A DNA stretch of 36,297 nt from an uncultured Clostridia bacterium (GTDB lineage: Bacteria > Bacillota > Clostridia > TANB77 > CAG-508): the NCBI GenBank assembly GCA_944390395.1, contig CALXPY010000013.1, positions 1-36,297 on the forward strand. The letters are read 5' to 3'. The notes beneath the pieces are model-generated. The model was not told where the DNA came from and made no database searches. It saw only the letters and a program-made list of their open reading frames with translations. Made by a program: the position numbers and the translations under genes. Shown in pieces: positions 31,910 to 36,297 of the stretch (positions are counted from its first letter, which is position 1; each line of letters begins with the position of its first letter).

Positions 31910-32440
31910 TTAGAATACATCACAATATTGCATATATTCATATCCATTTATTTTTGCTATAAACTTATGAAACTCTACAAGATTATTATATATCATAGCC
32001 TCCCTATTATAATTGCTAAGTTGATCGTACATAATACCTGTTGCTTCTTCAAAGTCGTATTTTAGTTCTTTAAATTCTCTATCCTCCTCAAATTCCACTT
32101 CAGCTTCTTTTAAGAATTCATTTAGTTTTTTGTTCATTTCTGTTGTATGACGTTCAACTCCTTGAACGTCTTTTTCTTTCAAATCACTTTTCAAGGTTTC
32201 CATTACTTCATCTAATCCCTCTACTTTTTCAATTGTATCAGAATTAGAAGTAACATAGCTTATTATTTCTTCTATTTTTCTAATCCGCGCTTCCGAAATT
32301 ACCTTTACTAATGTAAATTTTTCGAATACTACTGCGCTCTGAGTGTTGATTTCCTTACTTACTCTAAAGTAAGTATAGCTATGCAAGAGAACCTGAATAA
32401 CTAAAATAATTAGAATCGCAGCTGTAATTTGCTTTTTCAT
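31910..32440 (-). CDS. Divergent LemA-like membrane protein
   Basis: A 176-residue protein with one N-terminal membrane helix (about 5-23) and a long, charged helical domain outside. The C-terminal half recalls LemA: EDREFKELKYDFEEA, then LSNYNREAMIYNNLV, then AKINGYEYMQY, matching the YN-x-x-V-x-x-YN and G-Y/F-x-x-x-x-Y/F spacing of that family. Its N-terminal half has lost the usual NAWSQID block, so this is a distant or reduced member. GGAGG lies well placed before the ATG. It is a single-gene unit with terminators on both sides. No htpX adjacent. Alternative: a generic coiled-coil stress protein. Confidence 0.6.
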   Translation of the reverse strand: MKKQITAAILIILVIQVLLHSYTYFRVSKEINTQSAVVFEKFTLVKVISEARIRKIEEIISYVTSNSDTIEKVEGLDEVMETLKSDLKEKDVQGVERHTTEMNKKLNEFLKEAEVEFEEDREFKELKYDFEEATGIMYDQLSNYNREAMIYNNLVEFHKFIAKINGYEYMQYCDVF

Positions 32441-32551: not shown

Positions 32552-32586
32552 AAAAAAATTACCATTATTTAAATGGTAATTTTTTG
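32552..32586. terminator. Terminator of the sigma factor gene
   Basis: Arms ATTACCATT (32558-32566) and AATGGTAAT (32572-32580) with a 5-base loop, flanked by an A7 and a T-run. On the minus strand it closes the sigma factor transcript. Confidence 0.85.
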
Positions 32587-32590
32587 TATT

Positions 32591-33403
32591 TTATGATTCA
32601 TTTGCAATGTATTTACCTATACCATTAATAATGGTAGCTAAAAAGGGAAATGAATTTGAGTCTCGCGGCATATAAATTATAATTTGATTATTATCAATTT
32701 CTAATTTATATCTTTTAGAGTTCTTAGAAACGGTTATATCATTTGCAATTCTTATCGCTTCTTTCTTTGACTTTTCATTATCATTTAAAGTAATACTTAC
32801 TCTATACAGGTCTTTTTCTACAGACATAAAATAAGCTCCTTTAAATAACCGACCTCTTTCATAATAACATTTTATCTTTTTACATATAGTTTTTTCTAGT
32901 CTTGAAATTTGAGGCTGTGACAAATTTAATTGTTTTGCAATTTCTTTTTGTCTATATCCTGAAATTTTATATAACATAATCAGAATTTCCCTTTTTTCCA
33001 ATAAATTTAAAATTAAATTTATTAAAATTTCAAAGATATGTTCATCTTGATCTTCATAAATAGAATTACTACTAGAAGATAACAAGTCTTTTAAGTACAG
33101 TTCCTTTCCATTATCATTGACCTTAACTATATCTTCTAAAAACACTTCTTTCTTTTCAAAAGATTTATCCCTAAAACTTAAAAATAATTCATTTCTTATA
33201 CACTTAGCAGCATAAGATGCAAATTTTTTGTTTCTTGTCTTATCAAAATTTGCTGCCGCTTTAATTAGGCCAATTATTCCTATTGAAATCATATCATCAT
33301 AATTGCTTGGAGCAACTACGAATTTATTTACCCAATAGTATACAAGTCCAATGTTCTGCAGAACTAATTCTTGCTCTTCCAATGAAGTTAACCGTTTTTT
33401 CAT
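32591..33403 (-). CDS. SigE/SigK-like sigma-70 factor with a C-terminal extension
   Basis: A sigma-70 family protein of 270 residues. Region 2 (about 15-80) shows DDMISIGIIGLIKAAANFD and FASYAAKCIRNELF (core binding and -10 recognition); the linker KKEVFLEDIVKVNDNGKEL resembles that of sporulation sigma-E/sigma-K. Region 4 (about 145-190) holds the helix-turn-helix QKEIAKQLNLSQPQISRLEK. What is odd is what follows: about 80 further residues (from about 193) with GAYFMSVEKDLYRVSITLN and beta-alpha-beta-like character that standard sigma-E/K lack. No pro-sequence is apparent at the N-terminus. GGAAGGGG precedes the ATG. It is a monocistronic unit. The role as a sporulation sigma is likely from its similarity, but which one is not settled. 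Confidence 0.82.
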   Translation of the reverse strand: MKKRLTSLEEQELVLQNIGLVYYWVNKFVVAPSNYDDMISIGIIGLIKAAANFDKTRNKKFASYAAKCIRNELFLSFRDKSFEKKEVFLEDIVKVNDNGKELYLKDLLSSSSNSIYEDQDEHIFEILINLILNLLEKREILIMLYKISGYRQKEIAKQLNLSQPQISRLEKTICKKIKCYYERGRLFKGAYFMSVEKDLYRVSITLNDNEKSKKEAIRIANDITVSKNSKRYKLEIDNNQIIIYMPRDSNSFPFLATIINGIGKYIANES

Positions 33404-33525
33404 ATAATGCCCCTTCCCTCAATATTAATGTATACATTTTGAATTCTTGCAAAATAAAGTTTAAAATACTTATAAGGTTTTTATTCAAAACAAATTTTAC
33501 CATATATTTCCATTCAATGCAATAT

Positions 33526-33828
33526 CTATATACTCATTGCTATCAAACCTATTAATATTCCAATTATATTACCCAAAGCAGATATTCTACCATTATATAA
33601 TTTATTTGCCTCTGGTATAAGCTCTCCTGAAACAATATATATCATAGCTCCTGCTGCAAGTGACAAGCAAAGTGCAATTACTTCTTGTGATATTGTTCCT
33701 ACTAATGCTCCAAAAAAAGCACCTATTCCAGTCGTAATTCCAGATAATACTACTAAAAAAATTATTTTGCTACTTTTCATACCTCCATTTTTCATTGGTA
33801 CTGCCATAGATATTCCTTCTGGTAGATT
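33526..33828 (-). pseudogene. 3' remnant of a ZIP family metal transporter gene
   Basis: The frame reads NLPEG at 33828-33814 and continues through GISMAVPMKNGG, a hydrophobic helix, LSLAAGAMIYIVSGELIPEA and a last helix to the stop at 33526. This is the C-terminal part (from the family's H-N-x-PEG metal-binding helix on) of a ZIP zinc/iron permease; the 5' half, including the preceding histidine, is missing. An in-frame TAG (33829-33831) lies immediately before the NLPEG codons. The first ATG (33807) would give only 93 residues with about three helices, unlikely to transport. The break coincides with the end of an integrative element, so I read it as a gene split by insertion; the 5' half is expected beyond the right edge. 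Confidence 0.85.
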
Positions 33829-33847
33829 CTAAAGTAGACAGTTAGCT
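33823..33847. other. Probable attachment-site junction of the integrative element
   Basis: Homology to the ZIP gene stops at about 33823-33828 and the RhuM gene of the element ends at 33848, so the recombination junction must lie in these ~25 bases. The exact core cannot be read without the other junction or an empty site. Confidence 0.6.
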
Positions 33848-34870
33848 TTAATTTTTTCCTTCAATATTGTTTTTACATTCTTCTATTATTCTATCAAAAT
33901 CAGAAATATAATTTTTATCTTGCTCTTCTCTAAACTTCTCATACTCATTTTCTGCAAATTCTTTTGCCATCTCTGCTGAAATACTTCCTTTACCTTTTAA
34001 TATATCATACCTATTAGTTTTTAGCATAGTGTTTAATTCTTCAACCCAATCTTGCATTTTCATTGGTATTTGTCTTTTTGCCCTATTTTCTGCAATGTCT
34101 AAATACATATTTACTATGTCTTGTAAAAACTCTAATTCTTTTGATGTTAAATAGTTTTTTGCAATAGAGACATCACTTTTTAAAATTTTTCCATCAGGAG
34201 ATTGTTTCCAAGAAGTCAAGCCCATATGTTCTTTTTTACTGCTTGCTCTATGGTATATAATCTCAGCCGCAGTCTCGTTTGTAATAGCATAATGAAATTT
34301 ATTTTGAATAGTTGAATAAAAATCCTTTGCGATTTCAGAATTTTTATTATAATCAATACTGCATTCAGCAAAAATATCTGTTACTTTTTGATAAAATCTT
34401 CTTTCACTTGTTCTAATCTCCTTTATAATTTCTAATAATTCATCAAAATAATCTTTTCCATATTTTGCGGGATTTTTTAATTTTTCTTTATTTATGCTGT
34501 ATCCTTTTATAATATATGATTTTAATATTTCTGTAGCCCATTGCCTAAACTTTGTTGCTTTTTTTGAGTTTGCTCTATATCCCACAGCAATAATCATATC
34601 TAAATTATAATAATCTATATTTCTAGTAACTCTCCTTCCTCCTTCATTTTGAACTGTTGCAAATTTTGCAACAGTTGAATTTCTTTCAAGTTCTCCTTCC
34701 AGATATATATTGTTTATATGCCTAGAAATATCTGATTTATCTTTATCAAATAATTCTGCAATTTTATTGAGTGGTAACCAAATTGTTTCATTGTATAAAA
34801 AAGCTTCTACCTCTATTTTACTATTTTCATCTTCGTAAATAATTAAATCTCCTTTAGTTAATTCTTGCAT
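33848..34870 (-). CDS. RhuM family (virulence RhuM-like) protein
   Basis: A 340-residue protein of the RhuM family, common on mobile elements and of unclear biochemical role. The N-terminal part recalls Bro/KilA-type DNA-binding modules: IWLPLNKIAELFDKDKSDISRHINNI, then an RVTRNIDYYNLDMIIAVGYRANS block with TKFRQWATEILKSYIIKGYS. The later half is helical with YHRASSKKEHMGLTSW (typical of the family) and a charged C-terminus. AAAGGAGGG is well placed before the ATG. It has its own strong promoter behind the recombinase gene. Named after a Salmonella island gene; a toxin-like or regulatory role is possible but not shown. Confidence 0.88.
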   Translation of the reverse strand: MQELTKGDLIIYEDENSKIEVEAFLYNETIWLPLNKIAELFDKDKSDISRHINNIYLEGELERNSTVAKFATVQNEGGRRVTRNIDYYNLDMIIAVGYRANSKKATKFRQWATEILKSYIIKGYSINKEKLKNPAKYGKDYFDELLEIIKEIRTSERRFYQKVTDIFAECSIDYNKNSEIAKDFYSTIQNKFHYAITNETAAEIIYHRASSKKEHMGLTSWKQSPDGKILKSDVSIAKNYLTSKELEFLQDIVNMYLDIAENRAKRQIPMKMQDWVEELNTMLKTNRYDILKGKGSISAEMAKEFAENEYEKFREEQDKNYISDFDRIIEECKNNIEGKN

Positions 34871-34904
34871 TAGTGCCCTCCTTTTGTTGTGAACTTTTGT
34901 TTGT

Positions 34905-34933
34905 ATTTTATAGGCTTTTTATCTATTTGTCAA
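34905..34933 (-). promoter_or_regulatory. Strong promoter of the RhuM gene
   Basis: TTGACA (complement of 34928-34933), 17-base spacer, TAAAAT (complement of 34905-34910). A second TTGACA lies 12 bases upstream (34940-34945), and a small inverted repeat ATTCT-TTC-AGAAT at 34947-34959 could be an operator. Confidence 0.75.
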
Positions 34934-34989
34934 GAGTTCTGTCAAAATTCTTTCAGAATCGTATAAAAATATTATCTATTCAATTTAGA

Positions 34990-36297
34990 TTATTTATAAA
35001 TGATATTCAGTTTTTTAAAATTAAAAATTAGATCTATCTGTTTATCCTGATGTATTTCTATTCTGTTAATAAGTACTCTCATAATTTCTGGAGTAGGTTT
35101 TTCAAATTTTAGAAATTCTTTTACAATTTTTTCTATTTCTTCATCATTGTTGTCTATGCATTCCTCTGCCTCTTTTTTTAAATCTATGTACTCTGTTTCT
35201 TTATCCCTTTCAGCATTTTTCAATTTCTTGAAAAGTCTTTCATACATTTCTTCACTAAGTTTGTTATTTAGTTTATCAATATACATTTTATCAATATTAT
35301 TATTTATGATTTCAATTTCTTTTTCTATTTTGTTAAGCATTTTTTTGTAATCATATTTTGTCTTACTATTTTTAATATTTAACATAATTTTTTTATTGTC
35401 AATATCCATAAATATTTCCCTTATATAATCAATTATCTGTTTTTCTAATCGTTCATAACTAAAACCATGAGATGTGCATAAGTTAAGCTTTGAATTTCTG
35501 CGGTAATTATTACATATCATATCATAATGCCCATCTTTTCTCGTTCTAACTCCAATTTTGTGTTTACATTCATAACATATCAGCAATCCATCTAATAAAA
35601 AATGATTCTTTTTTTCGTTTCTAACATATTTCTGTACAATACCCATTTTTTGCACTCTATCAAAAACATTTTTATTAATAATTGGCTCGTGGGTATTTTC
35701 TACTATTTGCCATTGTTCTTTTGGATTTGCTCGAAGTTTTCTATTTTTATAGCTTATCCTACTCCTTTTATTTTGAATTGTAACACCAATATATGCTTTG
35801 TTTTGCAATATGAGTTTGACAGTTTTATTTTCCCAAAAAGTTGCTCTATTATACCTAATTTGGTTAGGTGTTGGAATATTATTGTTATTTAGATAATCTC
35901 TTATTACACCTACGTTATTCCCAGCCAACGCCATATTAAAAATAGTTCTGACAATTTTTGCTTCTTCACCACAAATAATTAAATGATTCTTATCTTTTGG
36001 ATCTTTCATATATCCCAAAGGTGTTTTACCTCCTACCCATTTTCCTTGTTTTTGCATAGTGTGTAATGCTGTTTTTATTTTTTTAGATAAATCTTTTGAA
36101 TACATATCATTTAATATTGATTTAAAAGGTGCAATATCATTATTTCCATTGTTTGTAGCAAAAGTATCTATGTTATCCGTTACAGAAACATATCTAACAT
36201 TATTTTCTGGAAACCACTTTTCTATATATTCTCCTGTTTCTATGTAATCACGACCTAGACGAGATAAATCCTTTGTTACAACCATATTTACCTTGCC
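34990..36297 (-). CDS. Large serine recombinase, 5' end outside the window
   Basis: Site-specific recombinase of the large serine family (resolvase-type catalysis, element integration and excision). The visible 435 residues start inside the catalytic domain at VNMVVTKDLSRLGRDYIETG; the catalytic serine region is beyond the right edge. Then come the Recombinase domain (about residues 85-200; GKWVGGKTPLGY), a zinc ribbon (about 235-280) with CYEC and two further cysteines (ICNN, LCTSH), a coiled coil of Lys/Glu/Asn-rich helices (about 295-370), and a short C-terminal domain. It is open to the window edge with no stop, so it is partial, not broken. It lies 119 bases before the RhuM gene. Confidence 0.93.
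   Translation of the reverse strand, partial: GKVNMVVTKDLSRLGRDYIETGEYIEKWFPENNVRYVSVTDNIDTFATNNGNNDIAPFKSILNDMYSKDLSKKIKTALHTMQKQGKWVGGKTPLGYMKDPKDKNHLIICGEEAKIVRTIFNMALAGNNVGVIRDYLNNNNIPTPNQIRYNRATFWENKTVKLILQNKAYIGVTIQNKRSRISYKNRKLRANPKEQWQIVENTHEPIINKNVFDRVQKMGIVQKYVRNEKKNHFLLDGLLICYECKHKIGVRTRKDGHYDMICNNYRRNSKLNLCTSHGFSYERLEKQIIDYIREIFMDIDNKKIMLNIKNSKTKYDYKKMLNKIEKEIEIINNNIDKMYIDKLNNKLSEEMYERLFKKLKNAERDKETEYIDLKKEAEECIDNNDEEIEKIVKEFLKFEKPTPEIMRVLINRIEIHQDKQIDLIFNFKKLNIIYK

Follow-up and report, generated by a model that had tools for sequence, protein, structure and literature searches.

Fused C-terminal regulatory domains are already known for ECF sigma factors, and the extension of ECF41 is SnoaL-like. 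The ECF41 extension is reported to be crucial for activity (PMC3426412), the extension of ECF56 is labelled SnoaL-like, AbiEi antitoxins are reported to repress their own operon via inverted repeats in the promoter (PMC7319586), and it is proposed that phage-encoded sporulation-like sigma factors could tap the sporulation network (PMC9429907). In the titles and abstract openings covered by the literature search, no fused C-terminal regulatory domain was described for a SigE/SigK-type sigma factor, and no fusion of a sigma factor with a winged helix of antitoxin type was mentioned.

The window, a stretch of 36,297 nucleotides from an uncultured Clostridia bacterium, encodes on the minus strand (32591..33403, stop codon included) a sigma factor of 270 aa with a C-terminal extension, identified from the list of open reading frames and by Pfam and NCBIfam. 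The gene is one unbroken frame with an ATG start and no internal stop codons. Sigma region 2 (residues 13-81; 33161..33367, minus strand) was delimited by Pfam (Sigma70_r2, E=6.6e-12) and by a fold match of the structure model to the SigE N-terminal domain 8b3z (Z 12.8); it was nearest to SigE/SigK and shared 36-45% identity with four SigE/SigK reference proteins from the order. Sigma region 4 (residues 121-183; 32855..33043, minus strand) was delimited by Pfam, the AlphaFold2 model and alignment to SigE, with the Pfam match (Sigma70_r4, E=4.4e-6) covering residues 137-178. Region 4.2 was 52% identical to that of the SigE of the same genome, which makes SigE/SigK-type target promoters plausible. 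The top NCBIfam models were SigK and SigE, aligned only over residues 11-179 and scoring far below their cut-offs, with 121 and 116 bits for SigK (cut-offs 252 and 298.65) and 113 and 105 bits for SigE (cut-offs 339 and 348.6). The cut-off of the sigma70-ECF superfamily model (42.9) was exceeded with 82.6 bits.

The window protein therefore resembles SigE and SigK (TIGR02835, TIGR02846) in the sequence of sigma 2 and sigma 4 and in the fold of the SigE N-terminal domain, but it differs from them at both ends, in its sub-cut-off scores and in its placement in a separate, weakly supported tree group. In the alignment, window residue 7 corresponds to residue 59 in SigE and to residue 50 in SigK, and ahead of this common column stand 6 residues in the window protein, 58 in SigE and 49 in SigK. 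The pro-peptide and region 1.2 of SigE and SigK are absent from the window protein and likewise from its relatives in genomes G343 and G050. At the other end, the SigE and SigK proteins of the order (231-246 aa) terminate a few residues past region 4.2, as the initial annotation had stated for ordinary sporulation sigma factors, so that window residues ∼184-270 are extra. The additional C-terminal part of about 80 residues described there was recovered as ∼85 residues beyond region 4 within the single 270-aa frame, and past residue ∼180 the Pfam scan gave no family at cut-off. A frameshift joining two genes, or a two-gene fusion, was ruled out, since the window frame is intact and the C-terminal domain (CTD) of the relatives lies in the frame of the sigma part. 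This was so in all seven relatives of alignment A1, at 18 of 20 loci on GTDB contigs (L090 and L099 are cut by the contig start) and in a further set of 12 CTD genes, among which G815 is truncated where its contig ends. A frameshift within region 4 interrupts one relative, G359b.

The extension is a real, conserved and separately folding domain. It was assigned to residues 188-266 (32606..32842, minus strand) from profiles and AlphaFold2, with a predicted beta-beta-alpha-beta-beta-alpha order; modelled with 18 relatives, the strands spanned residues 191-196, 199-206, 233-237 and 240-246 and the helices residues 210-226 and 249-265, with block pLDDT values of 72-90 across residues 191-270. The alternating strand and helix character expected from the initial annotation agrees with this model. 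Because the eight-extension profile A2 and the wider profile A3 both include the window sequence, a profile was remade without it; the window CTD matched this profile with 49.6 bits (E=4e-14), and the top score among 2000 shuffled window CTDs was 12.1 bits. Sequence searches with the CTD gave no confident Pfam or PDB family, the matches to uS10 and GTP cyclohydrolase being weak and partial, and none of 20 CTDs had a SnoaL-like Pfam match. When the whole model was searched with Foldseek and VIA-align, the matches lay mainly over residues ∼6-189, which is the sigma part.

Proteins alignable through the extension were found when 57 genomes, including that of the window, were searched with the window protein, so the domain is not confined to this copy, and an absence from all close homologues, named in the initial annotation as a refutation, does not hold. 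With profile A2 at E<=0.01, matches came from 5 of the 30 genus genomes, four of them with sigma fusions and one by a chance KH-like match. In the order, 42 of 385 genomes matched at E<=0.01, many by chance, and 22 of 385 at E<=1e-6. Profile A3 matched 26 of 390 genomes of the family at E<=1e-5, spread over 12 of 39 genera, and, at E<=1e-3, 2 of 391 genomes in a class sample, both from the same family as the window. The inspected matches with E>1e-4 were chance matches to unrelated proteins, judged by eye to be KH-like, RseP-like, MurF-like or of other kinds, with the exception of G200 (2.6e-4), a genuine tandem pair of CTD sigma factors. Judged from the sequences searched, a CTD behind a SigE/SigK-like sigma factor appears to be known so far only from one order of Clostridia. 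The scan of GTDB contigs gave 20 CTD loci, titled uncultured Clostridia or Clostridium and in one case 'Bacilli', some of them from chicken or 'Lapin' samples. Alignment A5 comprised 18 of these 20, leaving out L084 (the same protein as L082) and L090 (a truncated copy of L089). Of the 12 CTD genes added later, four repeated earlier loci (L090, L091, L097, L098) and eight were new.

In the phylogenetic tree, from which the broken G359b was excluded, the window protein grouped with the CTD family and apart from SigK. The node that separates the CTD sigma factors from SigE and SigK was weakly supported (81/65), and the nearest relative of the window protein was that of G343 (97/91). Tandem CTD sigma copies occur in single genomes at G028:C5, G200:C7 and G822:C5. 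In G359, a sigma gene is directly followed by a separate gene for a CTD-like protein that has two winged helices, and at locus L109 of this genome (4001-8154) stand-alone proteins with the Spo0A C-terminal DNA-binding domain, one of them with two copies of the domain, lie near tandem CTD sigma genes. A gene fission in G359 into separate sigma and CTD genes was considered and dropped, as the second pair turned out to be a frameshift inside region 4.

The CTD was highly conserved relative to the sigma part, with figures biased upward because the loci were fetched via CTD patterns: the dN/dS of the CTD was below that of the sigma part in 6 of 7 relative pairs, and among 136 pairs the CTD was more conserved by identity than sigma 4 in 135 and than sigma 2 in 87.

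Many relatives carry, behind the CTD, a disordered linker followed by a winged-helix domain in the structure model, a DNA-binding domain that goes beyond the initial annotation and is absent from the window copy. A winged helix was present in 27 of 43 tabulated CTD genes, namely 20 of 35 and seven of the eight new ones, with two copies in G814; the 20 of 35 count G359b as a winged-helix gene despite its frameshifted sigma part, and G376 likewise on the assumption that L118 and L099, which lie on two contigs, are one gene. The domain resembles the N-terminal domains of AbiEi antitoxins of type IV toxin-antitoxin systems: at a threshold of E<=0.1, 13 of 14 members matched one PADLOC AbiEi model, the best E-value over all PADLOC AbiEi models was 2.9e-6, and the match to Pfam AbiEi_4 was marginal (4 of 14 members, best E=0.019). 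Unlike in AbiEi, the domain of the relatives forms the C-terminal end of a protein that begins with a sigma factor. No AbiEii nucleotidyltransferase partner was present among the neighbours scanned, which were a minority of the relatives' neighbours. The nearest tree relative of the window protein, G343, has a winged helix, and leftover winged-helix DNA in G248 and L096 marks losses among the relatives. In close copies, the winged-helix ends were more diverged than the sigma part (dS 0.48 vs 0.13 for G206/G354 and 0.95 vs 0.15 for G024/L091), which suggests that 3' ends have been exchanged between copies.

The control region of the window gene was compared with that of the relatives. The closer relatives have in common a SigA-like promoter of the type TTGCAA-N17-TGATAAAAT, a leader and a strong ribosome binding site upstream of the gene. 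By alignment to this promoter, a putative SigA-type promoter, TTGCAT-N17-TAAAAT with a TG ahead of the -10 element, was placed at 33494..33522 on the minus strand of the window; a consensus promoter scan did not list it. The sequence further contains a purine-rich ribosome binding site, GAGGGAAGGGG (33410..33420, minus strand), and directly past the stop codon a terminator-like hairpin with a U run (32553..32585, minus strand; -12.7 kcal/mol, z -4.15), which was not listed by a terminator scan demanding G-C pairs.

An inverted repeat, TTTACATAA-N(10-12)-TTATTGTAAA, lies over the -35 element of the relatives' own promoter and is absent at the window promoter. With up to two mismatches allowed, it was present at 10 of 20 winged-helix genes, some of the 20 being near-identical (G024/G371, G206/G354), and at none of 15 genes without the winged helix, a count that leans towards winged-helix genes because the pattern was derived from those genes first; the other 10 of the 20 had no good repeat. 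A search of 12 genomes for the exact-type pattern gave four matches, all at the own promoter of a CTD sigma gene, and one match for the backward control. As a plain count the link between winged helix and repeat is strong; on the tree (33 rows, with G376 and G359b left out) it comprised three independent pairs on supported branches and had no significance, ancestry not being separable. A repeat at the own promoter is a further likeness to AbiEi, found in half of the winged-helix relatives. It suggests that these genes may be autorepressed, with the winged helix as the natural candidate for the repressor, since AbiEi is reported to repress in this manner.

The window copy, without winged helix or operator, could be read as a decaying gene, a relic that is shedding its C-terminal parts. 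Its CTD has a mean identity to the core family of 24%, vs 48% for sigma 2, and compared with G343 the differences at codon positions 1, 2 and 3 amount to 0.47, 0.41 and 0.66 in the CTD and to 0.36, 0.29 and 0.49 in the sigma part. That the CTD differs so much at the first and second codon positions would fit decay, and so would the losses in relatives, that is, the winged-helix remnants and the frameshifted gene described above. As the window CTD diverges faster than the sigma part, its role in this copy may be relaxed. However, codon position 2 is still less changed than position 3, the CTD is still compact in the AlphaFold2 model and matches the profile, and the copy has retained its intact 270-aa frame, promoter, ribosome binding site and strong terminator-like hairpin. 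We therefore regard decay as quite unlikely and regard the window copy rather as a probable derivative without winged helix and repeat, which would have kept sigma factor and CTD together with its own promoter and terminator.

The CTD sigma relatives occupy different genomic positions. In many pairs, DNA similarity was limited to the stretch from ∼110-160 bp before the start codon through ∼50 bp after the stop codon. Wider similarity was found as an exception in G024/G371, which come from different genera and are 97% identical over 2.1 kb, in L082/L087, which lie in a common element, and in L085/L092/L095 and L041/L091, which have more upstream DNA in common. The gene at L082 (G206) lies inside an integrated element with a tyrosine integrase, an excisionase-like HTH protein and a Mob_Pre relaxase, and at L087 (G354) there is a relative of this element in which the integrase is decayed and Mob_Pre is a remnant. 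Together with the scattered distribution and the mosaic 3' ends, these observations would fit a selfish or mobile sigma factor, in which the gene is one-gene cargo and CTD and winged helix serve the copy control of an element and not host regulation. On the other hand, several copies with both flanks visible lie between chromosomal genes, with no mobility gene recognised by eye, and the copies in G200, G211 and G214 have the same neighbours and therefore look vertically inherited. Nor was a CTD relative confirmed on viral contigs, and none of 89 matching phage records and none of 45 matching plasmid records covered 80% of the query. In our judgement a selfish or mobile sigma factor is somewhat unlikely. 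The window protein is comparable to the phage-encoded proteins in being an extra sporulation-like sigma factor and differs from them in that no viral relative with a CTD was found; a phage origin was looked for and not found, and the matches listed in a viral fold library were ordinary sigma-type proteins.

The sporulation sigma factors of the genome bear on a further reading, in which the window protein replaces a missing SigK in the late mother cell. The genome encodes SigE and a SigG-like protein (contig C33), SigF- and SigH-like proteins (C3) and RpoD (C52), the names other than SigE and SigK being given by eye. The SigG-like gene (G000:C33:8268-8934; L003, L007) is in two frames, which may be an assembly error or a broken gene. 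Of the ordinary sigE and sigK that the initial annotation proposed to look for, SigE was thus present, but the draft assembly (97.6% complete) yielded no SigK apart from SigE and the window protein, and 21 of 30 genomes of the genus, the window genome not among them, passed the SigK cut-off. Against this, other genomes with a CTD sigma factor retain SigK: G024 and G025 have both, with SigK over the cut-off, G032 has a SigK by tree position, and G028 has a SigK match below the cut-off. The CTD sigma factor is thus an addition and not generally a replacement. Moreover, the window protein groups in the tree with the CTD sigma factors and not with SigK, its promoter is SigA-type in appearance, and SigK may sit in an assembly gap, as illustrated by G023 and by G020, where SigK is in two contig-end pieces. 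In G023 (L159, G023:C69, 2254-6171), sigK is split by ∼3.2 kb with serine-recombinase-like pieces (recognised by eye), a skin-like element. A simple SigK substitute is very unlikely on this evidence.

The neighbourhood of the window gene was searched for separate regulators. No anti-sigma family was found among five flanking genes, all of which were searched with Pfam and four with NCBIfam. Between the sigma gene and a gene for a low-molecular-weight (LMW) phosphatase lies a gene (31910-32440) whose product, 176 aa long, has a hydrophobic N-terminal segment and no confident family, which leaves room for a partner of unrecognised type; the loci of genus-mates that were compared have none at that spot. 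The site next to the LMW phosphatase varies among genus-mates, and orthology between the window gene and G381 via this common neighbour was dismissed, as the two are only 30% identical and are not sisters in the tree. At many loci a contig end lies a short way upstream of the gene and hides the neighbours. A divergent two-gene operon lies beside the sigma gene at L085 (1736-4280) and L095 (864-2835). Its first gene has a PemK/MazF domain between other domains (E 1.4e-17 and 2.2e-18), and its second gene has a marginal one in L085 only. As a general partner this operon was rejected, being seen only at these two loci; it may be commoner, since L092 carries the same upstream DNA for ∼300 bp, as far as its contig reaches, and several other loci are truncated shortly before the gene. 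A likeness of the C-termini of these operon neighbours to Spo0A_C was weak (65% probability over 32 columns for one neighbour, 0.3% for the other).

With moderate confidence, we favour as the explanation of the whole an orphan alternative sigma factor, SigE/SigK-like, with a built-in regulatory or assembly CTD. The protein would be made without pro-peptide or region 1.2, with sigma 2 and sigma 4 as its only promoter-reading modules. The CTD would act as a regulatory or assembly module, most likely through protein-protein contacts (self- or partner-binding), and from its place beside sigma 4 it could control how core RNA polymerase or the -35 element is used; a role in dimerisation or in promoter assembly would be just as conceivable. 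Neither target genes nor a ligand were found. The initial annotation had proposed a built-in regulatory or sensing domain in place of a separate anti-sigma factor or pro-peptide control. This is supported in part, by the conserved separate domain, the absent pro-peptide and region 1.2, the gene's own terminator-like hairpin and the lack of a recognised anti-sigma family in the five flanking genes scanned, while the regulatory role of the CTD is what we infer, and a sensing function or the substitution for an anti-sigma factor is conjectural. In the relatives, the disordered linker would tether the AbiEi-like winged helix, which most likely binds TTTACATAA-N10/12-TTATTGTAAA where this lies over the SigA-type promoter of its own gene and thereby acts as a repressor; sigma factor and autorepressor would then be united in a single protein. 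ECF41 appears to be the nearest functional parallel, comparable in logic and with no homology implied: like it and other fused ECF sigma factors, the window protein combines sigma 2 and sigma 4 with a C-terminal extension and has no obvious anti-sigma gene, but its core is SigE/K-like, it has no SnoaL-like Pfam match and no co-transcribed partner was seen in the window. If this explanation is true, spore formers, or their elements, have a further way of acquiring a sigma factor that is free of pro-peptide and of separate anti-sigma control, and the family offers a small, testable, one-gene autoregulated sigma factor. A more extensive proposal is unlikely to hold in all its parts, namely a family of self-contained switches, each a SigE/SigK-type sigma factor with a regulatory domain that matched no known sequence family and a tethered AbiEi-like winged helix that silences its own gene, which would use promoters of the SigE/SigK class and spread between Clostridia as one promoter-gene-terminator unit with exchange of 3' ends.

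On the other side of the sigma gene, the window (33526-33840 and 33848-36297) encodes a ZIP metal transporter of which just the ∼100 C-terminal residues are present, adjoined by a serine recombinase gene and a RhuM gene. The N-terminal 148 residues of the transporter are encoded on another contig (G000:C14). In G012 the two ZIP halves, whose coordinates match, lie on separate contigs. In G022 the break point is the same, and the halves lie ∼13.8 kb apart on one contig with serine recombinase pieces beside the C-terminal half. From this arrangement, the ZIP gene looks as if it were split by a skin-like element.
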